Source: Caldifarciminota bacterium (GTDB taxonomy: Bacteria > Hydrothermota > UBA3073 > JACQXS01 > JAGMCI01). From it: a stretch of DNA of 64,000 nucleotides. A model generated the notes under the pieces. It had not been told where the DNA came from. It did not search any database and saw only the letters and a program-made list of their open reading frames with translations. Positions 12,728-54,602 of the stretch are shown piece by piece. Every line of letters begins with the position of its first letter. Position 1 is the stretch's first letter. The stretch lies in NCBI GenBank assembly GCA_023129325.1, contig JAGMCI010000008.1, positions 1 to 64,000 on the forward strand, in the 5' to 3' direction. The position numbers and the translations under genes were made by a program.

Positions 12728-12960
12728 AGTATAAACCATAGAGAGGGTGATAAAGAGAACACAGAGTTTTTTATTTCTTGTTTTTCCCATTTTTCCGTCT
12801 TTCCCTTTTTTCCCTTCATTACACAAAATTCAGTTTAATTCGGTGATTTTCGGTGTTTAATGCATTTTCTGGGTTTATTTTTTCTCTGTGGACTCTAATA
12901 TTCTCTGTGTTCTCTGTGGTTAAAGATTAGCAAGAATGATAAACAGTATCAAATAAAAAA
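12728..12960. repeat. intergenic repeat cluster
   Basis: This gene-free stretch holds copies of two dispersed repeat types: imperfect inverted ACAGAGA / TCTCTGTG segments (12740-12770 and 12890-12925) and a pyrimidine-rich TTTTCCC-type segment (12775-12832). Nothing in it looks coding. Confidence 0.65.
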
Positions 12961-12962
12961 AC

Positions 12963-12991
12963 TTGACATTTCTACGAGAACTAAATAAAAT
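12963..12991 (+). promoter_or_regulatory. promoter of the T9SS-cargo leader (copy 1)
   Basis: TTGACA, 17 bases, TAAAAT. It lies about 100 bases upstream of the pseudoknot leader element and over 200 bases upstream of the T9SS gene start at 13202, so the transcript has a long structured leader. Confidence 0.6.
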
Positions 12992-13049
12992 AAATAGATA
13001 GTTCTTTGGAATTCTGATTGCTTCAGGTAAAGATTTAGAGATTTAATTG

Positions 13050-13134
13050 TAGAAGGGGTGATGCCTATGAAGAAAAAAACATCTCTTTTTGCTAAGTGGA
13101 AGAACAAGAAGAGATGTAGACCAGGTCTTCCACG
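13050..13134 (+). ncRNA. candidate structured leader RNA (H-type pseudoknot), copy 1
   Basis: The box GGGGTGATGCCTATGAAG is followed by stem 1 (ACATCTCTT 13079-13087 with AAGAGATGT 13109-13117) and stem 2 (GTGGAAGA 13096-13103 with TCTTCCAC 13126-13133). Stem 2 starts inside the loop of stem 1, so the fold is an H-type pseudoknot with 8, 5 and 8 unpaired bases. A second copy with the same topology lies at 22931-23145, also before a T9SS cargo gene. I do not recognise it as a known riboswitch class. The alternative is a small coding sequence: ATG at 13061 opens 30 codons of a basic peptide, ending at 13153, but the frame is not kept in copy 2. Confidence 0.6.
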
Positions 13135-13156
13135 AAAATTGGTAAATGGTTAAATA

Positions 13157-13184
13157 GTAGGGGCAGACCTATGTGTCTGCCTAC
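13157..13184. repeat. palindrome between leader RNA and T9SS gene
   Basis: GTAGGGGCAGACC ... GTCTGCCTAC. Removing it would bring the distance from pseudoknot to start codon to 40 bases, close to the 35 bases in copy 2, so it looks like a later insertion. Confidence 0.7.
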
Positions 13185-13201
13185 ACGAATTGGAGAGAAA
13201 G

Positions 13202-14998
13202 ATGAAGAATTATGTAAAAGATATTTTGGCAGTTGCTATAATAGCGTTTATTCTGCCCGTAACTTTGTATTCCTGGTCCACAGACCCGACAGTTAACACC
13301 GCTATATGTGATACATTTAATTACTATACTAATCCTACCATAGTGAGTGCTGGTTCAAGTGGTGCTATAATTGCCTGGGAAGGTAGTCGTCCTACTGGTG
13401 AATATACATACCTTATTGGCGTATTTGCTCAAAAGGTGGATTCACTTGGGAATAATCTATGGCAAAAAAATGGTGTCAGAGTGTGTAGCACTGATTATGT
13501 GTTTTTTGGCTTATTGCCAGCAATAACTGATGATGGTGCTGGTGGCACTATAATTGTCTGGAACCAACAAGAACCTACATCATATTTTACCCATGACATC
13601 TATGCTCAGCGGCTTGATGCCGATGGCATCCCACAATGGACATCAGGTGGAGTGGCAGTCTGTGCTGAGGATAGTAATCAAGCCAGGCCCAGAATAGTGA
13701 GTGATGGTGCTGGTGGTGCTATAATTGTATGGTATGATGAACGCAAAGGAGAAGACAGCGTTCGTGTTTATGGGCAACGTATTGATGCAGATGGCAGCCC
13801 ACAATGGGCAACAGAGGGGATACCTATCACTACATGGGGGACACTGGGTTCTTCTTATACAGGGGCTGTCTATCCAACTATTAGCGATGGCAGTGGCGGT
13901 GCAATAATTGTCTGGCGGAATTTTTCCTATGGTGACTATTGGAAATATGTTTATGCCCAGCGCGTAGATGCGGGCGGCAACCTGCTCTGGGACCCAAATG
14001 GAGCAATGGTCTGCACAACTGGGTCTGATGGTAGTGACCCAGCCATAACATCTGATGGCAGTGGTGGTGCTATAATTGCATGGGGATTTGAGGTCTATGA
14101 AGGACCCCAGGGCTTACTTGCTCAGAGAATTGATTCATCTGGCACACTCCAGTGGGGACTAAACGGTGCCCTTGCTTGCAGTCTCTACGCAGATGATTTA
14201 ACCGATTTCATTGCTATTACGACTGATGATGCTGGTGGTGCAATCATGGCGTGGGGATATGACCGATTTGGAACCTGGCCCGATATATTCGGACAACGAA
14301 TTGATGCCAACGGCAGTCGACAGTGGGGTGTTTATGGAAAGACTGTTTTTATGTCTCCGGGAGACTCTAGCGCTATCGCCCCAATGATTATACCAGATGG
14401 CAGCGGCGGTGCTGTAATTGGAGTAATTAATAATACTTGGCTCGATTATGACCTCTATGCCCAGAGAGTAGATGCAGATGGTATTACACAATGGACAACA
14501 CCAGGAGTGGCAATTTGTACTCATGATAGTATGCTGGACCCTGGATTTGGTTATCCGAACATTATCACAACAGACCAGCAGGGTGGAGCTATATTTGTCT
14601 GGCAAGATAAAAGGAATTATGACCCAGCTACTTACAAGAAGGTTTACACAATTTATGCTCAGCGTGTTATGGGCAATGGCGAGCTTGGTCCTTCTGGACC
14701 TGGGGTTGAGGAGACAGAAAACAGAAGTCAGATACCAGAAATCAGACTAATGCAGAATTATCCAAATCCATTTAATCAGAAGACTGTTATTCGTTATTCG
14801 TGTCCGTGTCCGTGTAAAGTCTCTTTAAAGATTTATGATGTGTGTGGTAAATTAGTAAGGACATTGGTTAATGAACTGAAGTCAGCCGGCGCTTATACTG
14901 TAAAATGGAATGGTGAAGATATGCCAAGCGGTCTTTATTTCTACCAGTTAAAGGTTGGGCAAAAGACACGAACTAAGAAGTTACTATTGATTCGCTGA
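13202..14998 (+). CDS. exported beta-propeller-like protein with T9SS sorting domain
   Basis: After a signal peptide (KDILAVAIIAFILPVTLYSW) the protein has about nine 55-residue repeats built on the pattern DGAGGAIIVWYD ... VYGQRIDADGSPQW, probably propeller blades. It ends in a T9SS sorting domain (YPNPFNQKTVIRYSC, IYDVCGKLVRTL, GLYFYQL, KKLLLIR). The ATG at 13202 with GGAGAG upstream was chosen over an in-frame TTG at 13190. A pseudoknot leader and a palindrome lie upstream. It is expected to be exported and fixed to, or released from, the cell surface; no enzymatic domain is seen. Confidence 0.85.
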   Translation: MKNYVKDILAVAIIAFILPVTLYSWSTDPTVNTAICDTFNYYTNPTIVSAGSSGAIIAWEGSRPTGEYTYLIGVFAQKVDSLGNNLWQKNGVRVCSTDYVFFGLLPAITDDGAGGTIIVWNQQEPTSYFTHDIYAQRLDADGIPQWTSGGVAVCAEDSNQARPRIVSDGAGGAIIVWYDERKGEDSVRVYGQRIDADGSPQWATEGIPITTWGTLGSSYTGAVYPTISDGSGGAIIVWRNFSYGDYWKYVYAQRVDAGGNLLWDPNGAMVCTTGSDGSDPAITSDGSGGAIIAWGFEVYEGPQGLLAQRIDSSGTLQWGLNGALACSLYADDLTDFIAITTDDAGGAIMAWGYDRFGTWPDIFGQRIDANGSRQWGVYGKTVFMSPGDSSAIAPMIIPDGSGGAVIGVINNTWLDYDLYAQRVDADGITQWTTPGVAICTHDSMLDPGFGYPNIITTDQQGGAIFVWQDKRNYDPATYKKVYTIYAQRVMGNGELGPSGPGVEETENRSQIPEIRLMQNYPNPFNQKTVIRYSCPCPCKVSLKIYDVCGKLVRTLVNELKSAGAYTVKWNGEDMPSGLYFYQLKVGQKTRTKKLLLIR

Positions 14999-22259: not shown

Positions 22260-22766
22260 ATGGATTTGCAAGAAGAAAAGCAAGAGGAAATTTTTAGGAT
22301 GGAAGCAAGTGCATCCTCATTGTTGATAGTAAACATTATTGGTGGAATCGTTGCAGGAGGGGTATTGTTATTTTTCCTCTTAGCGATAAGAGGTCTCTAT
22401 GCTTCTCTTATATTTATAGTGATGCTTCTGGCATTAGCCCTTTATTTTATAATAGATTACCTCAGATGGCGAGAAAATGGAATCAGAGTGATTGAGATTG
22501 ACGAGAGTGGAATTAATGTATATCGGGGGGAACAAAAGCAACTCTCAAGAATTGAAGCAAGCCAGATTACTGATATAAATGTTTTCAAAAAAATAAACAG
22601 GAAAGTAGTGAACATAATTCTCGGTGGGAAAGTTCACAAAGTCTTACCTGGAGTTACACTATTTAGCGGTCCTCGTCTAAGAATAACCAATGACGCATTT
22701 GAGGATAAAGATTTTAATACCTTTGTTGATAGGTTAAAGAAGTTAAAAAATACTATAAAAGTATGA
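22260..22766 (+). CDS. membrane protein with PH-like C-terminal domain
   Basis: 168 residues: a short cytoplasmic N-terminus, two membrane helices (about 20-70, LLIVNIIGGIVAGGVLLFFLLAI and ASLIFIVMLLALALYFIIDY) and a beta-rich C-terminal domain (IRVIEIDESGINVYRGEQKQLSRIEASQITDINVFKKI) that reads like a bacterial PH domain. GGAGGG lies 7-8 bases before the ATG. It ends the row of same-strand genes that begins at 15588. No specific function can be assigned. Confidence 0.65.
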   Translation: MDLQEEKQEEIFRMEASASSLLIVNIIGGIVAGGVLLFFLLAIRGLYASLIFIVMLLALALYFIIDYLRWRENGIRVIEIDESGINVYRGEQKQLSRIEASQITDINVFKKINRKVVNIILGGKVHKVLPGVTLFSGPRLRITNDAFEDKDFNTFVDRLKKLKNTIKV

Positions 22767-22866
22767 ACGCCACAGAATCACACAGAAAAGCACAAGAATT
22801 TTTTCTTCAGTGAAATTCTGTGTCTTTCAGTGGCTATTTTTCTCTGTGTAATCTGTGGCTGTTTTT
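22767..22866. repeat. composite inverted repeat after the PH-like gene
   Basis: GCCACAGAATCACACAGAAA and its near complement TTTTCTCTGTGTAATCTGTGGC enclose an inner inverted pair (GAATTTTTTC / GAAATTCTGTG). It is placed where a terminator would be but has no T run of its own. Confidence 0.65.
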
Positions 22867-22869
22867 TAC

Positions 22870-22897
22870 TTGACAATCACTGAAATAAATGTATATT
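22870..22897 (+). promoter_or_regulatory. promoter of the T9SS-cargo leader (copy 2)
   Basis: TTGACA, 16 bases, TATATT. It precedes the GGGGTGATGCCTATGAAG box by about 35 bases. Confidence 0.6.
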
Positions 22898-22930
22898 ATA
22901 TATAAAATTTTTGATATTTGAATTTATCTT

Positions 22931-23145
22931 GAGGGGGTGATGCCTATGAAGAAAAACGCCTAAAAGTCCCCGCCTGCCAAAACGAAGTGGCGGGCAGGCA
23001 AAATTCCTACCTGCCTGACGGTAGGCAGGAATACCTAAAAAAGAATTTAGGTGTTTGGGTATTTAGGCATTTAGGTATTTATAATTGAGCATCTCTTTCT
23101 TGCTATGTGGAAGGGCAGGAAGAGATGAAAGATAAGTCTTCCACC
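22931..23145 (+). ncRNA. candidate structured leader RNA (H-type pseudoknot), copy 2, split by palindromes
   Basis: The GGGGGTGATGCCTATGAAGA box (22933-22952) is followed by about 140 bases of inserted palindromes, then by stem 1 (CATCTCTT 23090-23097 with AAGAGATG 23120-23127) and stem 2 (GTGGAAGG 23107-23114 with TCTTCCAC 23137-23144, one G-U pair). Loops are 9, 5 and 9 bases against 8, 5 and 8 in copy 1. TTGCTA in the first loop is kept; the third loop is not. One inserted base in loop 1 shifts any reading frame, so conservation is at RNA level. Confidence 0.6.
22968..23080. repeat. palindrome cluster inserted in leader copy 2
   Basis: CCCCGCCTGCC ... GGCGGGCAGGC (22968-22999), ATTCCTACCTGCC ... 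GGTAGGCAGGAAT (23003-23032) and an ACCTAAA / TTTAGGT inverted repeat (23033-23078) lie side by side between the 5' box and the pseudoknot. Confidence 0.75.
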
Positions 23146-23179: not shown

Positions 23180-25975
23180 ATGTATTTAGTAATAGGATTG
23201 TTTCTTTTGACTGTTTCAGCAGATGTCCATCTTTCGCCTCAAGAGGTGCGCGAGCATATGGAATTATTGATAGAGGCAAATAAGGTGCCATTTGGACTTA
23301 AGAGGGCATGGTCTAACAAGATGGATATGAGAGTTGAACAACAAAAAAGGGAGATTGAGCCCACAATGCGGCGTATGGAGAAAGAGCGCATAAGTCCAGT
23401 TGAATATAGGGTTAGACAACATCTTAAAGAGGTAGCTAATCTACAAGCTGAAGGCAGGACTCCTGAGGAGATAGTAAGTTACTTCAATGTCTCAAGGAAG
23501 GGGATTGGCACCAGTGCAATTGCTGGTTCAACATATTGGGCAAAAGACACAAGTGGAATCTCTGGGGTAACCGTAAATGCCTTTGATGAATATGGTTATT
23601 TTGCTGGAAGCTACTATTCTGGTTACAATGGGTATTACATGATTAGTGGGCTACATAGTGGTAAATACTATTTGCGTACCTATAGCTATACTGGCTGGAT
23701 AAATGAGTGGTATGATAATGTTCACTCCTGGTGGGATGCTGCACTTGTTAATGTTGCCGATGCTGATACAGTATGGGACAAGAACTTTTACCTTGATTGC
23801 GCTGGCTTTGTAAATGGCTACTTCTATGAAGTTGATGGGTTCACTCCTATAGCTAATAAATCTGTTAACCTTTATGGATACACTGACAGCACGCATTACC
23901 AGTATTTTTACGCATATACTGATATTAATGGTGAATATACTCTTTCGGATGTTCCACAAGGTAGTTATAAATTTAAAGGTACAGTGAGTGATTATAAGGA
24001 CGAGTTTTATGATAATGTATCAACATGGGAAAGTGCTACGGTTGTGAATGTGAATGTAAATGATACTACCTTTGGTATAGACTATTCACTTGAACGTTGG
24101 CCCGCAGGTGCAATTTCCGGGCATCTACACGAGAGTGATGGGACAACCCCAATTTTTAATGCCTGGGTCTATGCATCCACATTTTGGGGGTATGAGCCAG
24201 GAGATTACGGAGGTGCATACACTGATATAGATGGCTACTATGTTATTGAAGACTTAATATGTAATCCATACAATGTGAGAACTAATGCTTCTGGATATGT
24301 AAATGAGTATTGGGATGATGCAATTAACTGGGAAGATAAAGATACTGTATGGGTGATTGAGAATGATACGATACCAGATATAGATTTTGTCCTTGACTTT
24401 GGTGGCGCAATTGCCGGCAATGTTCAGAGTGATGCAGGTGACTCTTTATGCTCGGCGTATGTTACTGCCTATGATACAAATAGCTGGTATGTTAATTCTG
24501 ATTGGACCGATGCGAGTGGAAACTATATAGTTGGAGGCTTACAGGCTGGCGATTATATTTTACGTGCATCTAAATCTGACTATGTGCCTGAATACTATGA
24601 TGATGTATTTAATTTTGTAGATGCTACCCGTGTTCCAGTGACTGTTGGTGATACTACACAACCTATCAATTTCAGTCTTGCCCCGGGAGCAGAATATGGC
24701 TATATCTCAGGCAATGTATATGAGAGTGATGGAACAACTCCAATTTCTTCTGTGGTTGAGGTATATGAGGCAAGTGATGGCGACTTTGTAACATCCACAT
24801 ACTCATGCCCTTGCGACGGTTATTATTTAATAGAGCTTCAGCCTGGTAATTATAAGCTCTATGCAACTCCATTAGGCTCGCAGTGGTGGCAAGCCCAGTC
24901 TGACCTTGCGCCTAACTTTGTGCCTGAATATTGGGATGGTTCACCGAATTGGACTGGTGCTACACCAATTACTGTCACTGCTGGAGATACGGCCCTTGAC
25001 AAGGACTTTACGCTTGAACTTGGTGGTTCAATTCAAGGTTTTATAACACACAGCGGAAAGCGGGTATCAAGTGATAGCACTACGGTTTCTATATTTGTCT
25101 ACAATGCCACTACTGGAGCATTCTCTGGCTGGGCATTTAATACATTCTGTGGTGGCTATCGTGCATATGGAGTGCCTGCCGGAACCCATAAAGTAGCTGC
25201 AATTATGCCTTACACTAATTATGCAGTTAAATACTATGGTGGCGGAGCTACATTTGATGATGCTTTAAGTGATACTTTAGTGGTTGTGCCTGCTGGTGAC
25301 CCAGATGCAAATATAGCAATTGATACTGCTGGTGGTGCTATATCTGGTTATGTAAAAACGGTATCTAATGGAGATACATCATTGCTATTTGATGTTGAGG
25401 TCTTTGGTTATGACGGGACAGGTCATCTGGTGCAAACTGGTACTGGACATCATGGAGATTACAGACTTGGTGGACTTAGGACAGGGAATTATGCATTGAG
25501 AACACTTGACTGGTGGGGAAACCTTACTGATGAGTGGTGGGAAAATGTGCCTATTACTGACGGGACGCCAAGGTATGATATTTTCTATGCAAGTGTTCCA
25601 GGAGCGGCCAGTTGGGTTAATGTTACAGACCCCGGAGAAGTATCTGGCATAGATTTCTATTTTGATGTTGGAGTGGAAGAAAGTCCTGCTCCTGAATTAG
25701 TAACCCTTTTACATCAGAATAAGCCCAATCCATTCAGTTCAGCAACTAATATTCAGTATACAGTGGGAAAGAAAGATTGGGTCAGCCTAAAGGTCTATGA
25801 CATTTGTGGTAGATTGGTTCGTGTCCTAACAAATGAGCGAAAGCAATCAGGAACCTACACAGTAAAGTGGGACGGCAAATCAGATAAAGAAGGAAGACTG
25901 TCAAACGGTGTTTATTTTTACCAATTGAAAGTAGGTAACGAAACGCGGACACAGAAGATGCTGCTAATACATTAA
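23180..25975 (+). CDS. exported multi-repeat protein (carboxypeptidase-regulatory-like domains) with T9SS sorting domain
   Basis: 931 residues. A short signal peptide (LVIGLFLLTVSA) and a charged helical region (to about 110) precede seven or eight beta-sandwich repeats of about 85-100 residues with the pattern GGAIAGNVQSDAGD ... YVTAYDT ... DASGNYIVGGLQAGDYILRAS ... YVPEYYDD, as in CarboxypepD_reg/SdrD-B-like domains that form stalks. The T9SS sorting domain is at the end (NKPNPFSSATNIQYTV, VYDICGRLVRVL, NGVYFYQL). GGAGGGACG precedes the ATG. With its pseudoknot leader it is likely under the same control as the gene at 13202. Confidence 0.85.
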   Translation: MYLVIGLFLLTVSADVHLSPQEVREHMELLIEANKVPFGLKRAWSNKMDMRVEQQKREIEPTMRRMEKERISPVEYRVRQHLKEVANLQAEGRTPEEIVSYFNVSRKGIGTSAIAGSTYWAKDTSGISGVTVNAFDEYGYFAGSYYSGYNGYYMISGLHSGKYYLRTYSYTGWINEWYDNVHSWWDAALVNVADADTVWDKNFYLDCAGFVNGYFYEVDGFTPIANKSVNLYGYTDSTHYQYFYAYTDINGEYTLSDVPQGSYKFKGTVSDYKDEFYDNVSTWESATVVNVNVNDTTFGIDYSLERWPAGAISGHLHESDGTTPIFNAWVYASTFWGYEPGDYGGAYTDIDGYYVIEDLICNPYNVRTNASGYVNEYWDDAINWEDKDTVWVIENDTIPDIDFVLDFGGAIAGNVQSDAGDSLCSAYVTAYDTNSWYVNSDWTDASGNYIVGGLQAGDYILRASKSDYVPEYYDDVFNFVDATRVPVTVGDTTQPINFSLAPGAEYGYISGNVYESDGTTPISSVVEVYEASDGDFVTSTYSCPCDGYYLIELQPGNYKLYATPLGSQWWQAQSDLAPNFVPEYWDGSPNWTGATPITVTAGDTALDKDFTLELGGSIQGFITHSGKRVSSDSTTVSIFVYNATTGAFSGWAFNTFCGGYRAYGVPAGTHKVAAIMPYTNYAVKYYGGGATFDDALSDTLVVVPAGDPDANIAIDTAGGAISGYVKTVSNGDTSLLFDVEVFGYDGTGHLVQTGTGHHGDYRLGGLRTGNYALRTLDWWGNLTDEWWENVPITDGTPRYDIFYASVPGAASWVNVTDPGEVSGIDFYFDVGVEESPAPELVTLLHQNKPNPFSSATNIQYTVGKKDWVSLKVYDICGRLVRVLTNERKQSGTYTVKWDGKSDKEGRLSNGVYFYQLKVGNETRTQKMLLIH

Positions 25976-47939: not shown

Positions 47940-50900
47940 ATGAAAAAATTTAAAGTCTTATCAATACTTGGTGTTTTAGCGGCGGGCTTTCTTTTCCTTG
48001 CCAGTCAAAGCTCTTCTCCTGATAATCAATCTCCAAAGAAAGTAGTTCAACTTATGCGGATGATGAGCAAGCGAGCGGCAAGTGTGGAAAGGGCTGACAA
48101 GATTGAGTGGACAACCGCAAGGGTTGTCCCTACAAAGGGCGAACCTGTGGGGATAGGGCTTGCCCCTGTCCACAAAAAGCCACGGAAGGCTTATGAGCTT
48201 GGGAAGCCAGTTCCTTACAGCCCCCGCTATGGCAGACCACACAAATTCATTGAAGAAACTATACCTATGGAAGAATATTGGGGAGAACCTGCACTTCCTG
48301 AAGGTCCAAAGGTTACTACAACATGGGAAGGAGACCAATCTTCGAAGTCATGGAGTATTGCCGCTAACTGGGATAATGGAGTTCCAGGTGAGAACGATGA
48401 TGTTATAATTCCTGATGGCACTCCTCCTTGCACACTTTCAGTAGAAGGTAATTGCTACAATCTAAAAGTTGGAAGCAATGGTAAGCTCATTATGACAGTT
48501 GATGGATGGCTTAATGTTTATGGGGCTTCAATTATTGACAGTGGGACCGTAAAGGCACCACTTGATGACTTGGCAGACATTATGGTTCAAGGGAAGAAAG
48601 CTGTTATTGAGTGCATAATGGCTGGCGATTCTGTCTGGCATATAGATTTAAAGGTCTATCCGATGACACCTGCTACAGGTAACCGCATCGTTAGACTTGG
48701 TGCTGATACACATATTGAGGGCTTTCTGTCCATCGGACATCCATCATTTAATGCCAGCTATAAAAAAGCCAGTTTTTATTGCAGTAATGCTCCTGATAGC
48801 TTTAAATTGAATGTTCATGGTGATATTTATATCTGGAATGGCTTTAAGTTTGAGGAATGGGATAGTGAGTTAGAACAAGCGGATACTATCTGGTGCGGTG
48901 GCAGTTGGGCTAATGCCGGCGACTTTACAAGAAAAGTTGGCTACCCTGTAATCTTTTACGGAGATGAGGATACAATTGGACTTGGGTGGACTTATGAGGA
49001 AGTGACAGAGTTTGCTGATTTGACAGTAGTTGATACCGCTCACTATGTATTGGGGTATAACGAAATGGTCAAAGGTAATGCTGACATCAATGGCTATCTT
49101 GGTTTAAATGCTCAAGTATTACAGGTGGATACTAATGTGGCAGTTTCAGGGACGCTACATGTAGATGCCGGCTCTTATCTCTTACTTTCAGATGTCTCGG
49201 AAGTTGATGTAAATGATGGAGGTGTATTAAAGGCGATTGGGAATTCAGGAACAAAAGCAAATATAAGTGGAGCATCAATATCTGATTTTTATACACTTAA
49301 TATAAATTCAGGTGGTAAGATTTCAGCAAAGTATGCTAAATTTAATTATACTTGTGGAATTACTATAGCCGATGGTGCTACTATTGGTGGGCTTTCTTCA
49401 CGAGATAGTTTATATTACTGTGAATTTGGGCATACACAAGATAACGATACATTGCTTTGTATAATGAATGACCAGAAGGTTAATATCTGGGGGGCGTATT
49501 TCCCCCATTCAGCAACTGGGGCAAATAATGTTTATAGTAATAATACATTACCGGGAGCCGGTGGAGAGGACTCAATAATCTTCTGGAATTACTCGGGTCC
49601 ATTTTCAGGCACAGATTATGAACTTGACCCAACAGGACCAGATTCTGTAAATGGCATAATATTCTGGAAATTTGCTACTGGTCATTACAAAGGGAAGATA
49701 CTTGTATTTTATGATGATGATACTTATTGTGGGCCAAATGACCCGGATGTTGTGCGGACCAAGAATCACCTTGATGAGCTTGGCTATGCTGCTGATACAG
49801 TGAATATAGCTAATTATTCAACTTACTATTATCCAAATGAAGGGCACAAGTTCCAGATGCCCAATAAGGAGTGGGCAGAGGTTGTGTTTATGATAACAGC
49901 TGATGCCTCTGCTCCTCTTAATAATGCTGGACAGCGTGGCGCACTCATAAATTATGTGCTCTCGGGTGGCAGGCTATTTGTTTCAAGCGGGGACTTATGT
50001 TACGATACAAGAGGTGCAGATGGTTCTTTTGGAACCAACGATGATTGGCAGGCAACTTATTTTTGGCTCGTTCATGCGCCTTTTGAGCAGCAATGGATAA
50101 GTAACGATGAAGCAGACCATTTTGAACGCTGGACAGGAGGAACCACTCCGCCTTTAACCCTTATTCCAAATGACTTACCGGATATAATTAATTGCGATGC
50201 AGCTGACGACTGGCATACAGATGAATGCTATGTCAATAATATAGAGCCAGGTGTTATTGAATGGTGGTGTGCAGATGATAATGAGACATCAATATATCTG
50301 AGGTCTTATGAACTATTTAATACAAGACAGGTCTATCTTGCCACTACCGATACACATATGATTGTCACAGGCGGCGATGAATTGAAGAAAGATTTTATTG
50401 AAAATGTTATTTCCTGGCTATTGGAGCCAGTTAATTTGGTGCCTGATAAGCCAGTTCTTGTTGAAATATTTGATAATGCAGAACCCAAGATGGATGTTCT
50501 TGCTCAGGCAGTGTTTAAGTTTCATGGTGATGACCCGGAGAAGGACTTTATCCAATACAATTTTCAAACAGATGATGATTATTCTTTTGGCTCAATAGAT
50601 AAGAGCGATTGGACATCTTCTTATGCACCATTAGGAGAAGCTGCCTTTTATATGGATACCACAGGCTTAACCCAGGGCACAACTTACTGGTGGCGTGTAG
50701 CCGGTAAAGACCCTGCAGGTAGCCAGGATACATCTCTCTGGTCTGATTATAGGTCATTTACAGTTGCCAGTGCAGAGAGAATTGCAGAGGTAGATACATT
50801 TTTCACTCGCTGGTATCAAACAACAAATGAACAGTGGCTCACAAATACCTGTTATCAGGTAAAAGAATCAGCTGGCAGTTCTGTTCTTGGCGATTCTTGT

Positions 50901-53900
50901 ATCTTTTATGATAATTTTGATGACGAGACTACAGGCGAAGAGCCATCAAACTGGACAACTTCGTATAGTGGTGTTGCAAATGTAAGCATCTGTGATACTG
51001 TGTATTATGGGTCAGGTGGTAAGTGTTGCCACTTTGTGGATACACGAGCTGGGGAAGCCATTCCACCAGCGGCTCAATGTAAAATAGGCAAAAAGTGGAC
51101 TCCCGCGTTAGAGAAAGGAACTATAGAATGGAGATGCAGGACAGAGAAGGACGGCTTTGCGGTGAGGTTCCATAAGGTTGGAGGGACTTGGACCTGGTCA
51201 ACGCAAATTAATATGTGTAACAACACGAAAGGAATTTCTGTGGAAGATGCTAACAATAGTTTCACAACAATAGGACCCTGCACTACATATGCACCAGACA
51301 AATGGTATCATATGAAGATGGAATTTGATTGCGTTAAAGATAGTTGCTGGGTATATATAGATGGCGATGGCCCTCATGGATATGCTATTGCTAATGAAGC
51401 CTCTTTGGATTCCGCTACATTTCTTACTTATGGCAGTTTTGCGCCTCAAAATGCCTATCTTGATGAGGTATCAGTTTCAAAATATGATGCATCAGCAGAT
51501 TCGGGTAAAATGACAAGTGGGACAGTTATCCGTAAATGGGCGGCAAGGGGATGGAATGCACTTCATTGGGAACAAAATATTGCTGATGATTCAATAAGAA
51601 TCAATGTTCAATACTTGGATGCAGGCGTCTGGAAAGATAGCCTTCCTGGCACTTATGGGGATTCGGTAATTGAAGGTTATACATCGGCTGGCTGTGTGGA
51701 AGGAACGCTTAAGTTGGGCTTGCTTGATTCTTGCGGAGTTGATAGTATAAGGCTTATGGCTACTCTTTATCGTGGTGGTGGCAAAGCAAGTGAGAATCCA
51801 GAATTAAAGTGGTGGGATGTGAGATATACATCTGAGCCACTCGCTCAGAAGACGCCAGGCCTATGGATTGGCGTTGTGTCCACGGATTGGGACACGCGAG
51901 CCAACTGGGATGACTCGCTTGTGCCAGGTATAAATATTAATGTAAGAATACCTGAAGGGTGTCCCTATTATCCAGATTTGGATGAAGTTGCGTACTGTAA
52001 CAATTTCACTATGGATAGTGGTGGTGTGCTAAACTCTCAAGCATCTGGAGAGCTCGAGGTTCATCACAATTTTAAGGCAATGAAAGGTTGCACGCTTAAA
52101 TTAGACGCTGGAGGAGTTATTATCAAATCCTCACTTGAAGCTTCAGTTACAATTAGAACAGCATCAGGGCACTACTTCCATAACCTTACCATTAATAGTC
52201 TTGAGGCAAAAGTTGTTTTAGCAAGTAATATTGATGTAAACAACAACCTGACGATAACAGCTGGGACATTTAATCCTGGCAGTCATACTGTTTATCTGGC
52301 TGGTAACTTTGTGAACAATAGCACATTTAAGCCTTCTGCTTCTACAATATATTTTGACAGCACTCTTGCCCAGACAATTAGCGGCGATAGCAGCTTCACT
52401 TTCTACAATCTTACCTGCGATAAATCTGGTGGCACTGCTGAAGCACAGAAGAGCATTGCTGTGAAAAAGCAACTTAAGATAGATAATGGGACATTTAGTA
52501 TAAACCCAGGCGATTCCCTAATTATGTATCGTGCCAGCTCAATAGAAGTAAATGGAGGCGTTTTGAAGTTGGTAGGCACTGCAGATGATACAGTAACTGT
52601 TACCCTGGCCAGTGGTAGCAAAAAAACTAATGTTAGTAAAATATGGCAAACTTATGAACAAAGAAATATTGGAATACAGGATACTCATTTCGGTCCATTA
52701 AAGTTAAAACTATCAGAGAAGAAAGCTGTAAGGCGCTCAGGCTCAAAAATAGCTACGTCCTTTGAGGTTGCTAAAAACCTTGAAACGCTCAAGAATGCTC
52801 AACTTTTGGCATCACCAAAGTCACCGGGGGACACTGTCTTTGGCCCTGAGAGTTTTGAAGGTGACTGGATGCCCACAGACTGGACACAATACGACTGTTC
52901 AGGTGATGCTTCTGATAACGTATGGGAAAGACAGACTGATTGCTGCGGTTATTCCTCACCTGAGGGCACATTTTGTGCCAGGATGTATTACGATGCAAGT
53001 AATGTGATAAATAGAGCACTTGAAACACCAAATATATCACTTTATGAACATATAAACTGTCAACTCTCATTTTATTCCTGCATGTTTAATAATTGGAAAG
53101 ATACTCTAATTATTGAGCTCTCAACAAACACTACTGGGGGCAGTGGAGATGGTGATTGGACTGAACTTGCACGCTACTTAAATGATGGTTCTAATGATGG
53201 ATGGATACAGAGAAACATTGATATCTCTGCTTATGACAGAGAACAAACTGTATATATTCGCTTCAGGTCAGCTCAACCTGCAGATGCTAATGCTAATGGC
53301 GTAGACTATGTTATAATAACAGGTGATTATAAGCCTCATCCATACACATTTAACATAAATTCAGGTGGACATATAAATGCCAAGTATTATAAATTTGAAA
53401 AAATGGATAGCACTGGCTTAGTTATAAATGAGGGCGCTTTTATTGAGACTTTCACATTTGAAAGTAAACACTACGGCTTATGTGCTGGTCGCTTCACTGG
53501 TGGGACATCAGGTGGAACATATTTGACTATAAATAATTATCAAGGAATTCATCCTGATACTCTTCACATTTTTGGTGTTATATTTGATACTCTATGGGCA
53601 TGGAATATGAAATATAATGTTGCCAAGACAGTAGAGCCTGGGGCGGATAGTGGATATATTATGATGGATTCGCTTGAGAATCCAACTAAGGGCTCATGGG
53701 GTAATTTTTATGGCGAAGCTTATGAATATGACACCTACACCAGAATTTTCTGGGGGTATAGTCCAAATCCACTATCTGTTGAATTGGCATCATTTGAGGC
53801 AATAGGTCAATATGAGTCAGTCTTACTGCAATGGATTACAGAATCAGAATCTGACCATGCAAGATGGTTGCTTGCGAGAAGCGAAAAAGAACCAGGAATC

Positions 53901-54602
53901 GAGGAATCAAGGTATCAAGGGGTCAAGGAATCAAGTAGACAAAATAAATTTAGATTGCAAAATGCAAATTGGAAAGTGAAAGATGAAAGCCCTGCCCGAC
54001 AGACGGCAGGCAGGCAAAAACTGAAAACATCAGACGCAGATATATTACCACAAATCCGAAACAAATTCAAAATCCAAAATAGGGAAAAAGATTCACCATT
54101 TAACCAATCACCATTTAACCAGTCTGATTGGCAGATTATAGCAGAAGTTCAAGCAGAGGGTGGAGGATATACTTATGACTGGATTGATTCATTAGTTGAA
54201 GTTGAAACTACTTATTGGTATAAGCTTGGTGATATTAGTAATAAGGGTGATACAACCTGGCATGATAATTGGATTGATTCTGCTACTCCAAAAGGATGCA
54301 GGATTGTAAAATTTGGTTTAAAGCAATCCTGGCCAAATCCATTTGCAGATAAGGCTCATATTGAGTATGCTGTTCCTGGAAAATTACCATCAGCCAATAA
54401 GCTTAATGTCTCATTAAAGATTTATGATATCACTGGAAGACTTGTTAAGACAGTTATTGATAAAAGAAAATCACCTGGCTCTTATGAAGTTGGCTGGGAT
54501 GGAAAAACAGACTGGGGCAGGAACCTACCAGCTGGAGTCTACTTTTACAGACTGCAAGTAGGGCGTAAAGTATCTACCAAGAAACTCATCCTAATTCGGT
54601 AA
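47940..54602 (+). CDS. giant exported surface protein (2220 residues) with T9SS sorting domain
   Basis: Signal peptide (FKVLSILGVLAAGFLFLAS). Two related blocks begin with TTTWEGDQSSKSWSIAANWD (about 120) and LWIGVVSTDWDTRANWDD (about 1305), each followed by short beta-helix-like strands (VEGNCYNLKVGSNGKL; NFTMDSGGVLNSQASGELEVHHNF). Between them lie an alpha/beta segment (LVFYDDDTYCGPNDPD ... about 580-680), a fibronectin-like piece (YWWRVAGKDPAGSQDTSLWSDYRSF) and a LamG-like piece (GTIEWRCRTEKDGF). A MAM-like segment (ESFEGDWMPTDWTQYDC) and the T9SS domain (WPNPFADKAHIEYAV, IYDITGRLVKTV, GVYFYRL, KKLILIR) follow. It is probably a very large adhesin-like fibre. GGAGGGATT precedes the ATG. Repeats are inserted in frame at two places. 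Confidence 0.83.
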   Translation: MKKFKVLSILGVLAAGFLFLASQSSSPDNQSPKKVVQLMRMMSKRAASVERADKIEWTTARVVPTKGEPVGIGLAPVHKKPRKAYELGKPVPYSPRYGRPHKFIEETIPMEEYWGEPALPEGPKVTTTWEGDQSSKSWSIAANWDNGVPGENDDVIIPDGTPPCTLSVEGNCYNLKVGSNGKLIMTVDGWLNVYGASIIDSGTVKAPLDDLADIMVQGKKAVIECIMAGDSVWHIDLKVYPMTPATGNRIVRLGADTHIEGFLSIGHPSFNASYKKASFYCSNAPDSFKLNVHGDIYIWNGFKFEEWDSELEQADTIWCGGSWANAGDFTRKVGYPVIFYGDEDTIGLGWTYEEVTEFADLTVVDTAHYVLGYNEMVKGNADINGYLGLNAQVLQVDTNVAVSGTLHVDAGSYLLLSDVSEVDVNDGGVLKAIGNSGTKANISGASISDFYTLNINSGGKISAKYAKFNYTCGITIADGATIGGLSSRDSLYYCEFGHTQDNDTLLCIMNDQKVNIWGAYFPHSATGANNVYSNNTLPGAGGEDSIIFWNYSGPFSGTDYELDPTGPDSVNGIIFWKFATGHYKGKILVFYDDDTYCGPNDPDVVRTKNHLDELGYAADTVNIANYSTYYYPNEGHKFQMPNKEWAEVVFMITADASAPLNNAGQRGALINYVLSGGRLFVSSGDLCYDTRGADGSFGTNDDWQATYFWLVHAPFEQQWISNDEADHFERWTGGTTPPLTLIPNDLPDIINCDAADDWHTDECYVNNIEPGVIEWWCADDNETSIYLRSYELFNTRQVYLATTDTHMIVTGGDELKKDFIENVISWLLEPVNLVPDKPVLVEIFDNAEPKMDVLAQAVFKFHGDDPEKDFIQYNFQTDDDYSFGSIDKSDWTSSYAPLGEAAFYMDTTGLTQGTTYWWRVAGKDPAGSQDTSLWSDYRSFTVASAERIAEVDTFFTRWYQTTNEQWLTNTCYQVKESAGSSVLGDSCIFYDNFDDETTGEEPSNWTTSYSGVANVSICDTVYYGSGGKCCHFVDTRAGEAIPPAAQCKIGKKWTPALEKGTIEWRCRTEKDGFAVRFHKVGGTWTWSTQINMCNNTKGISVEDANNSFTTIGPCTTYAPDKWYHMKMEFDCVKDSCWVYIDGDGPHGYAIANEASLDSATFLTYGSFAPQNAYLDEVSVSKYDASADSGKMTSGTVIRKWAARGWNALHWEQNIADDSIRINVQYLDAGVWKDSLPGTYGDSVIEGYTSAGCVEGTLKLGLLDSCGVDSIRLMATLYRGGGKASENPELKWWDVRYTSEPLAQKTPGLWIGVVSTDWDTRANWDDSLVPGININVRIPEGCPYYPDLDEVAYCNNFTMDSGGVLNSQASGELEVHHNFKAMKGCTLKLDAGGVIIKSSLEASVTIRTASGHYFHNLTINSLEAKVVLASNIDVNNNLTITAGTFNPGSHTVYLAGNFVNNSTFKPSASTIYFDSTLAQTISGDSSFTFYNLTCDKSGGTAEAQKSIAVKKQLKIDNGTFSINPGDSLIMYRASSIEVNGGVLKLVGTADDTVTVTLASGSKKTNVSKIWQTYEQRNIGIQDTHFGPLKLKLSEKKAVRRSGSKIATSFEVAKNLETLKNAQLLASPKSPGDTVFGPESFEGDWMPTDWTQYDCSGDASDNVWERQTDCCGYSSPEGTFCARMYYDASNVINRALETPNISLYEHINCQLSFYSCMFNNWKDTLIIELSTNTTGGSGDGDWTELARYLNDGSNDGWIQRNIDISAYDREQTVYIRFRSAQPADANANGVDYVIITGDYKPHPYTFNINSGGHINAKYYKFEKMDSTGLVINEGAFIETFTFESKHYGLCAGRFTGGTSGGTYLTINNYQGIHPDTLHIFGVIFDTLWAWNMKYNVAKTVEPGADSGYIMMDSLENPTKGSWGNFYGEAYEYDTYTRIFWGYSPNPLSVELASFEAIGQYESVLLQWITESESDHARWLLARSEKEPGIEESRYQGVKESSRQNKFRLQNANWKVKDESPARQTAGRQKLKTSDADILPQIRNKFKIQNREKDSPFNQSPFNQSDWQIIAEVQAEGGGYTYDWIDSLVEVETTYWYKLGDISNKGDTTWHDNWIDSATPKGCRIVKFGLKQSWPNPFADKAHIEYAVPGKLPSANKLNVSLKIYDITGRLVKTVIDKRKSPGSYEVGWDGKTDWGRNLPAGVYFYRLQVGRKVSTKKLILIR
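48109..48173. repeat. two in-frame palindromes in the giant gene
   Basis: GGACAACCGCAAGGGTTGTC followed by CCTACA (48109-48134) and GTGGGGATAGGG ... CCCCTGTCCAC (48147-48173), read as WTTARVVPTKGEPVGIGLAPV after the signal peptide. Confidence 0.75.
53890..54122. repeat. block of intergenic-type repeats inside the giant coding region
   Basis: Starting near GAATCGAGGAATCAAGG, the block includes CCTGCCCGACAGACGGCAGG (53991 on), ACAAATCCGAAACAAATTC (54052 on) and two ACCATTTAACCA copies (54096-54120), all of which are normally intergenic here. About 75 codons, rich in K, R, N and Q, separate LLARS from DWQIIAEVQAEGGG. Confidence 0.75.

Follow-up and report, generated by a model that had tools for sequence, protein, structure and literature searches.

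The element in front of the gene at 13202 is, as read from its sequence, a cis-acting 5' leader RNA that forms a module on envelope-protein mRNAs within a single class of the candidate division WOR-3 (Caldifarciminota). The loop of a hairpin pairs with a strand further downstream, as in an H-type pseudoknot, and both helices are kept in relatives. In total, 12 copies (10 of them non-redundant) were found in eight genomes, four of them in a single genome. Every copy lies on the sense strand in the position of a leader RNA, in the predicted 5' UTR, with a box or promoter before it and an exported-protein gene after it. The observation is confirmed and lies far beyond chance, and the element probably controls the translation or lifetime of envelope mRNAs. 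The initial annotation had read it as a pseudoknot leader RNA of a T9SS cargo gene. The pseudoknot leader held up, with covariation across genera, no match in Rfam and a failing peptide alternative, and the leader interpretation as a whole is partly supported.

Two copies are present in the window, the whole stretch of 64,000 nucleotides that was analysed. Copy 1 and its gene are composed as follows, S1 and S2 being the two stems.

12963..12991, plus strand: sigma-70-type promoter-like site, TTGACA-17-TAAAAT, 11 of 12 consensus positions
13055..13072, plus strand: box, an extended Shine-Dalgarno (SD) sequence GGGGTGAT followed by TATG, the start of a possible short ORF
13067..13153, plus strand: possible leader ORF of 28 codons, MKKKTSLFAKWKNKKRCRPGLPRKLVNG, its frame unconserved in the other copies
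13079..13091, plus strand: 5' arm of S1, ACATCTCTTTTTG
13092..13104, plus strand: loop of S1, 13 nt, CTAA GTGGAAGA A
13096..13103, plus strand: 5' strand of S2, GTGGAAGA, the central 8 bases of the S1 loop
13105..13117, plus strand: 3' arm of S1, CAAGAAGAGATGT
13126..13133, plus strand: 3' strand of S2, TCTTCCAC, followed by a conserved RAA
13202..14998, plus strand: downstream gene 1, exported protein of 598 aa with a T9SS C-terminal sorting domain (PF18962, E 3e-9)

The TTGACA/TAAAAT promoter proposed earlier is present at 12963-12991 with a 17-nt spacer. As the pattern search found one site with 1.0 expected by chance, this call is weak when taken alone; TTGACA also stands upstream of the element in copies c2, c3, L027, L028 and L029. 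The stems that had been described, 13079-13087 with 13109-13117 and 13096-13103 with 13126-13133, are both perfect complements. For stem 1 the pairing was correct, but not the length of 9 bp, since it extends to 13 bp (13079-13091 with 13105-13117, including one G-U). Because these 13 bp enclose a 13-nt loop, the loop lengths of 8, 5 and 8 had to be corrected to linkers of 4, 1 and 8 nt. The short box upstream of the stems was recovered in both window copies, and no further exact copy of GGGGTGATGCCTATGAAG (13055-13072 and 22934-22951) exists in the 2.02-Mb genome.

Copy 2 and its gene are composed of these parts.

22870..22899, plus strand: promoter-like site, TTGACA-18-TATTAT
22934..22951, plus strand: box, whose short ORF stops after MKKNA
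22957..23087, plus strand: palindromic, REP-like repeat insert of ~131 nt with strong inverted repeats, between box and pseudoknot
23090..23102, plus strand: 5' arm of S1, CATCTCTTTCTTG, with one bulge
23103..23115, plus strand: loop of S1, 13 nt, CTAT GTGGAAGG G, with the 5' strand of S2 inside at 23107-23114
23116..23127, plus strand: 3' arm of S1, CAGGAAGAGATG
23137..23144, plus strand: 3' strand of S2, TCTTCCAC
23180..25975, plus strand: downstream gene 2, exported protein of 931 aa with carboxypeptidase-regulatory-like repeats (PF13620) and a T9SS sorting domain (PF18962)

The same order of parts had been claimed for the region before 23180. The module is there (23090-23144), but its box is set apart from the knot by the insert, which has no counterpart in copy 1; box and pseudoknot therefore tolerate separation. 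S1 is part of the minimum-energy structure of both window leaders when they are folded as single strands. The stem sequences of the two copies are identical, so that this pair alone shows no covariation and the evidence has to come from relatives. Imperfect inverted repeats of the CTCTGTG/CACAGAG type were seen in intergenic DNA just upstream of both promoters (12754-12915 and 22764-22860 of the window), the two heptamers occurring 8 and 12 times in the window. A very large ORF of 2220 codons lies at 47940-54602 of the window.

Outside the genome, exact box and stem patterns gave nothing above chance except for a single box that lacked a pseudoknot. A third copy in the same genome, c3 (L003/L039), was reached through the box with two mismatches, and a fourth, L021/L027, in another family of the same order and with a different S1 sequence, through a loop/strand pattern. 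A covariance model of these four seed copies (R1) was searched against 16 genomes of the class and matched L049 (E 8e-11), L028 (2.5e-9), L029 (2.9e-9), L030 (8e-5), L031 (1e-4), L032 (9e-4), L033 (3e-3) and L043 (0.095). Independent copies were thus obtained in genera outside the seed set with E values of 8e-11 to 8e-4 per genome. The covariance-model search suggested by the initial annotation thereby returned further copies in the same class of the lineage. With a second model (R2), searched against 147 genomes of the phylum, strong matches were confined to the class. Copies that had not been used in training obtained E values of 2e-9 (L028 and L029), 7e-8 (L027), 5e-7 (L030) and 0.006 (L043), the last being a weak scorer with 0.006 to 0.095 depending on the model.

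Matches of R2 beyond the class, with E between 7e-4 and 0.5 and including L070 and L085, consisted of an SD sequence with the start of another gene or coding sequence and had no pseudoknot; the same was true of a weak match inside the class, L071 in genome G003. An exact-pattern scan of 84,980 GTDB species gave eight stretches, four of which were known WOR-3-lineage copies and four chance matches in other organisms. A scan of viral contigs gave 12 matches; they came from two sets of related phage sequences and lacked S1 pairing. A mobile element was rejected as an explanation, given the sense orientation of all copies ahead of exported-protein genes and the interlocking of S2 with S1. Rfam 15 had no family at the gathering threshold over the element, in the window and at 11 related loci, where only chance-level scores were obtained; the initial annotation could likewise not match it to a known riboswitch or leader class.

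Covariation was assessed in an alignment of 13 rows (A7), which had been fitted to S1. In the named pseudoknot, 87.3% of the cells were standard pairs compared with 53-66% when the partners were slid, and two-sided changes occurred at 10 of the 11 pairs of S1. Because of the fitting, the arms were tested again by reading outward from the 13-nt loop. In this unfitted test, the arms of S1 formed 99 of 120 pairs with their own partners, a value that only 2 of 100,000 partner permutations reached; shuffling within the arms gave 85 pairs at most. S1 comprises up to 13 pairs, and its loop, with the consensus NTAA-GTGGAAGR-R, measured 13 nt in all 12 copies.

S2 is formed by 6-8 nucleotides of this loop with the downstream UCUUCCAC strand. 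In A7, 94.1% of its cells were paired and one two-sided change was counted. Partner permutation was less telling (2,245 of 100,000), since the sequence of S2 is nearly invariant. Compensatory changes were found in two lineages, namely GTGAAAG/CTTTCAC in L031 and GTGGAT/GTCCAC in L030 (A-U to U-G), next to G-U exchanges in L029 and L043. The case for S2 as a helix is well supported, mostly by consistent pairing and by few compensatory changes, and is less decisive than that for S1. In the near-identical pairs L028/L029 (leader 98.9% vs coding sequence 92.2%) and L032/L033 (96.5% vs 98.5%), extra conservation of the leader was no more than modest, and they were not used as evidence.

A hydrophobic signal at the N-terminus was recognised by inspection in every downstream protein. 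Seven of the eight proteins tested with Pfam belong to envelope or surface families: besides the two window genes, c3, L027 and L032 precede PF13505 barrels, L049 a TonB-dependent receptor and L031 a DUF6588 protein. The eighth, behind L043, is a papain-like protease with a lipobox (lipoprotein signal by inspection). The designation as a leader of T9SS cargo genes fits both window genes, but not c3, L027, L031, L032, L043 and L049, whose genes lack the sorting domain. These targets are non-homologous and functionally related, which points to a shared control of the envelope at the RNA level. Barrel orthologues or paralogues without the element exist in G003, in G006 and among the second barrel genes of G000 and G002, so that the element is dispensable for barrel proteins.

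With a generic 16S rRNA tail in place of the genome's own, the box GGAGGTGAT proved complementary to this usual 3' end. The predicted duplexes with the generic tail ranged from -12.7 to -18.6 kcal/mol and were stronger than those of the gene's own SD in 10 out of 10 cases; the values for copy 1 were -14.1 and -6.4 kcal/mol. An ATG follows the box after 7-8 nt in six of the 10 non-redundant copies. The start codon is absent in L027, which has ATT and then a stop, and in L032 and L033, and the box is kept even in such copies. The distance from box to pseudoknot is 34-48 nt (~170 nt in copy 2 due to the insertion) and that from pseudoknot to gene 28 to 123 nt. As the distance to the gene varies and an insertion can separate off the box, the parts seem to work as modules that do not depend on a set distance to the gene's SD. 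Promoter, the same box and a short ORF without a pseudoknot were also observed at L013/L100 (G001:C3) and L102 (G004:C8). The boxes of L013 and L102 precede genes with signal-like N-termini, L102 carrying an ordinary hairpin instead; box and knot are hence separable. At L085 (G048:C3), which belongs to another family of the phylum, a pilin-like gene (GFTIIELL) follows AGGAGGTGATGCATATG and a short ORF, and the habit of placing a box leader before a gene may thus be wider than the pseudoknot.

As mechanism we tentatively prefer, at less than even confidence, a ribosome-docking pseudoknot leader that would tune the translation or stability of envelope mRNAs. The 30S subunit would dock on the box via its anti-SD tail. 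From a start codon at the box it would be ~12 nt to the base of S1, a position near the mRNA entry channel according to established ribosome geometry, and the pseudoknot could set how easily ribosomes pass to the envelope gene. Alternatively, the bound 30S might stay and shield the mRNA, and a regulator may stabilise or melt the pseudoknot. Leader pseudoknots are known as high-affinity targets of bS1, and entrapment of 30S has been described in E. coli (PMC10931766). It speaks against docking that a role of the pseudoknot for S1 only or for a protein only would look identical, and that the gap of ~130 nt between box and knot in copy 2 would demand another geometry for a contact between 30S and pseudoknot. 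Ribosome docking was placed first and a dedicated regulator next on account of the bS1/30S precedents and because RNase J and CsrA were not detected in the class genomes. More doubtful is the broader proposal of a post-transcriptional envelope regulon spanning the WOR-3 lineage, in which a ribosome-docking pseudoknot for 30S loading or trapping would be transplantable among unrelated outer-membrane and T9SS genes, would control them jointly and would work without a leader peptide product, CsrA or RNase J.

The dedicated regulator, possible rather than likely, would be an RNA-binding protein or small RNA that acts in trans on an envelope regulon and recognises the 13-nt loop together with UCUUCCAC. 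A loop constant in length and nearly so in sequence across genera, the occurrence before unrelated envelope genes (four in one genome) and the varying gene distance are in agreement with such a site, but no candidate protein or small RNA emerged. CsrA, the best-known binder of GGA in loops, was undetected in 16 of the 16 class genomes, and the loop of L031 has lost the GGA (GUGAAAG) with its pairing kept, which argues against a CsrA leader.

It is unlikely that the element is a riboswitch for a small molecule, with translational control through an H-type pseudoknot aptamer as in preQ1-I or SAM-II. Its compact knot, A-rich third loop and promoter-proximal position in the 5' UTR would suit an aptamer; the target genes, however, encode structural or surface proteins that share no metabolite, and Rfam gave no riboswitch match. 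At L049 (G000:C37), moreover, the gene is already under a cobalamin riboswitch (1183-1395, 66.5 bits), with the pseudoknot leader directly 3' of it (1501-1587) and then the TonB-dependent receptor. Since the riboswitch precedes it, the element appears there as a separate, added module and not as a ligand sensor, and the ligand sensing considered by the initial annotation gained no positive support.

Still less probable is a 5' stabiliser of the STAB-SD type, in which a 30S subunit parked on the SD-like box would block a 5'-3' exonuclease and the pseudoknot would be an extra roadblock. The box is indeed an extended SD-like sequence apart from that of the gene, some boxes lack a start codon and lie near the predicted promoter, and parking of 30S on an upstream SD is established for cry3A (PMC4113751). 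Yet RNase J (TIGR00649), the exonuclease that STAB-SD counters, exceeded the cut-off in none of the 16 class genomes, compared with nine of 14 control genomes. Although G000 is 89% complete, the absence extends over the whole class.

We consider it very unlikely that the 3' strand of S2 (CUUCC) serves as an anti-SD switch that sequesters the gene's SD unless the S1 loop captures it. In c3, L027 and L049, the strand is predicted to pair with the gene SD about as well as within S2, but CUUCC pairs with any GGAGG by nature. Where S2 has co-evolved away, the strand retains its pairing with the loop and pairs less well with the SD (-7.9 and -5.8 kcal/mol in L030, -8.4 and -4.5 kcal/mol in L031). 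An intrinsic-terminator attenuator was likewise unsupported, as neither window leader contains a terminator on the sense strand.

A conserved short leader peptide (attenuator-like uORF), with the RNA stems as a by-product of its codons, is highly improbable despite the ATG in most non-redundant copies and a uORF stop that overlaps the gene start in c3, because starts are lost, ORF length at the box varies between 5 and 37 codons, all three phases occur across the S2 strand and the S1 arms covary as pairs rather than codons. The small basic peptide of the initial annotation is thereby discarded for want of a conserved frame, and there appears to be no peptide family, as tblastn with the c3 leader peptide matched only itself above noise. 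Initiation of translation at the box could still be relevant, which the peptide sequence apparently is not.

Taken with the preferred docking mechanism, the element represents a compact test object for how an upstream SD box and a pseudoknot could steer ribosomes. It is a covarying structured leader, absent from Rfam, in an uncultured phylum for which no paper on post-transcriptional control was found; the literature search also gave none that joins WOR-3 with structured RNA leaders or T9SS. That CsrA and RNase J were undetectable above the cut-off in 16 genomes of the class bears on mRNA turnover there.

Among known systems, the alpha-operon (uS4) and rpsO (uS15) leaders of E. coli likewise have a 5' leader pseudoknot beside an SD sequence, and these pseudoknots act on 30S (PMC10931766). 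They are located where a ribosomal protein gene begins and are bound by its product, whereas the element precedes exported-protein genes only, has the gene's SD 28-123 nt past the pseudoknot and lacks an Rfam match. STAB-SD of Bacillus thuringiensis cry3A shares the SD-like sequence in the 5' UTR, upstream and separate from the gene SD, but is without a pseudoknot as described (PMC4113751), unlike the element, which in many copies also has a start codon. A single H-type pseudoknot in the 5' UTR is common to the element and the preQ1-I and SAM-II riboswitches. In the latter, metabolite genes are regulated and their SD lies within or beside the knot; the element has no metabolic target and is again not matched by Rfam. 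With the orphan cis-regulatory RNA motifs of comparative genomics it shares a covarying structure, a place on the same strand before functionally related genes and a putative function; it differs in that it is confined to a single class of WOR-3 and has no entry in Rfam 15. The element is therefore a new family of orphan leader RNA within a kind already known, the structured 5' leader RNA.
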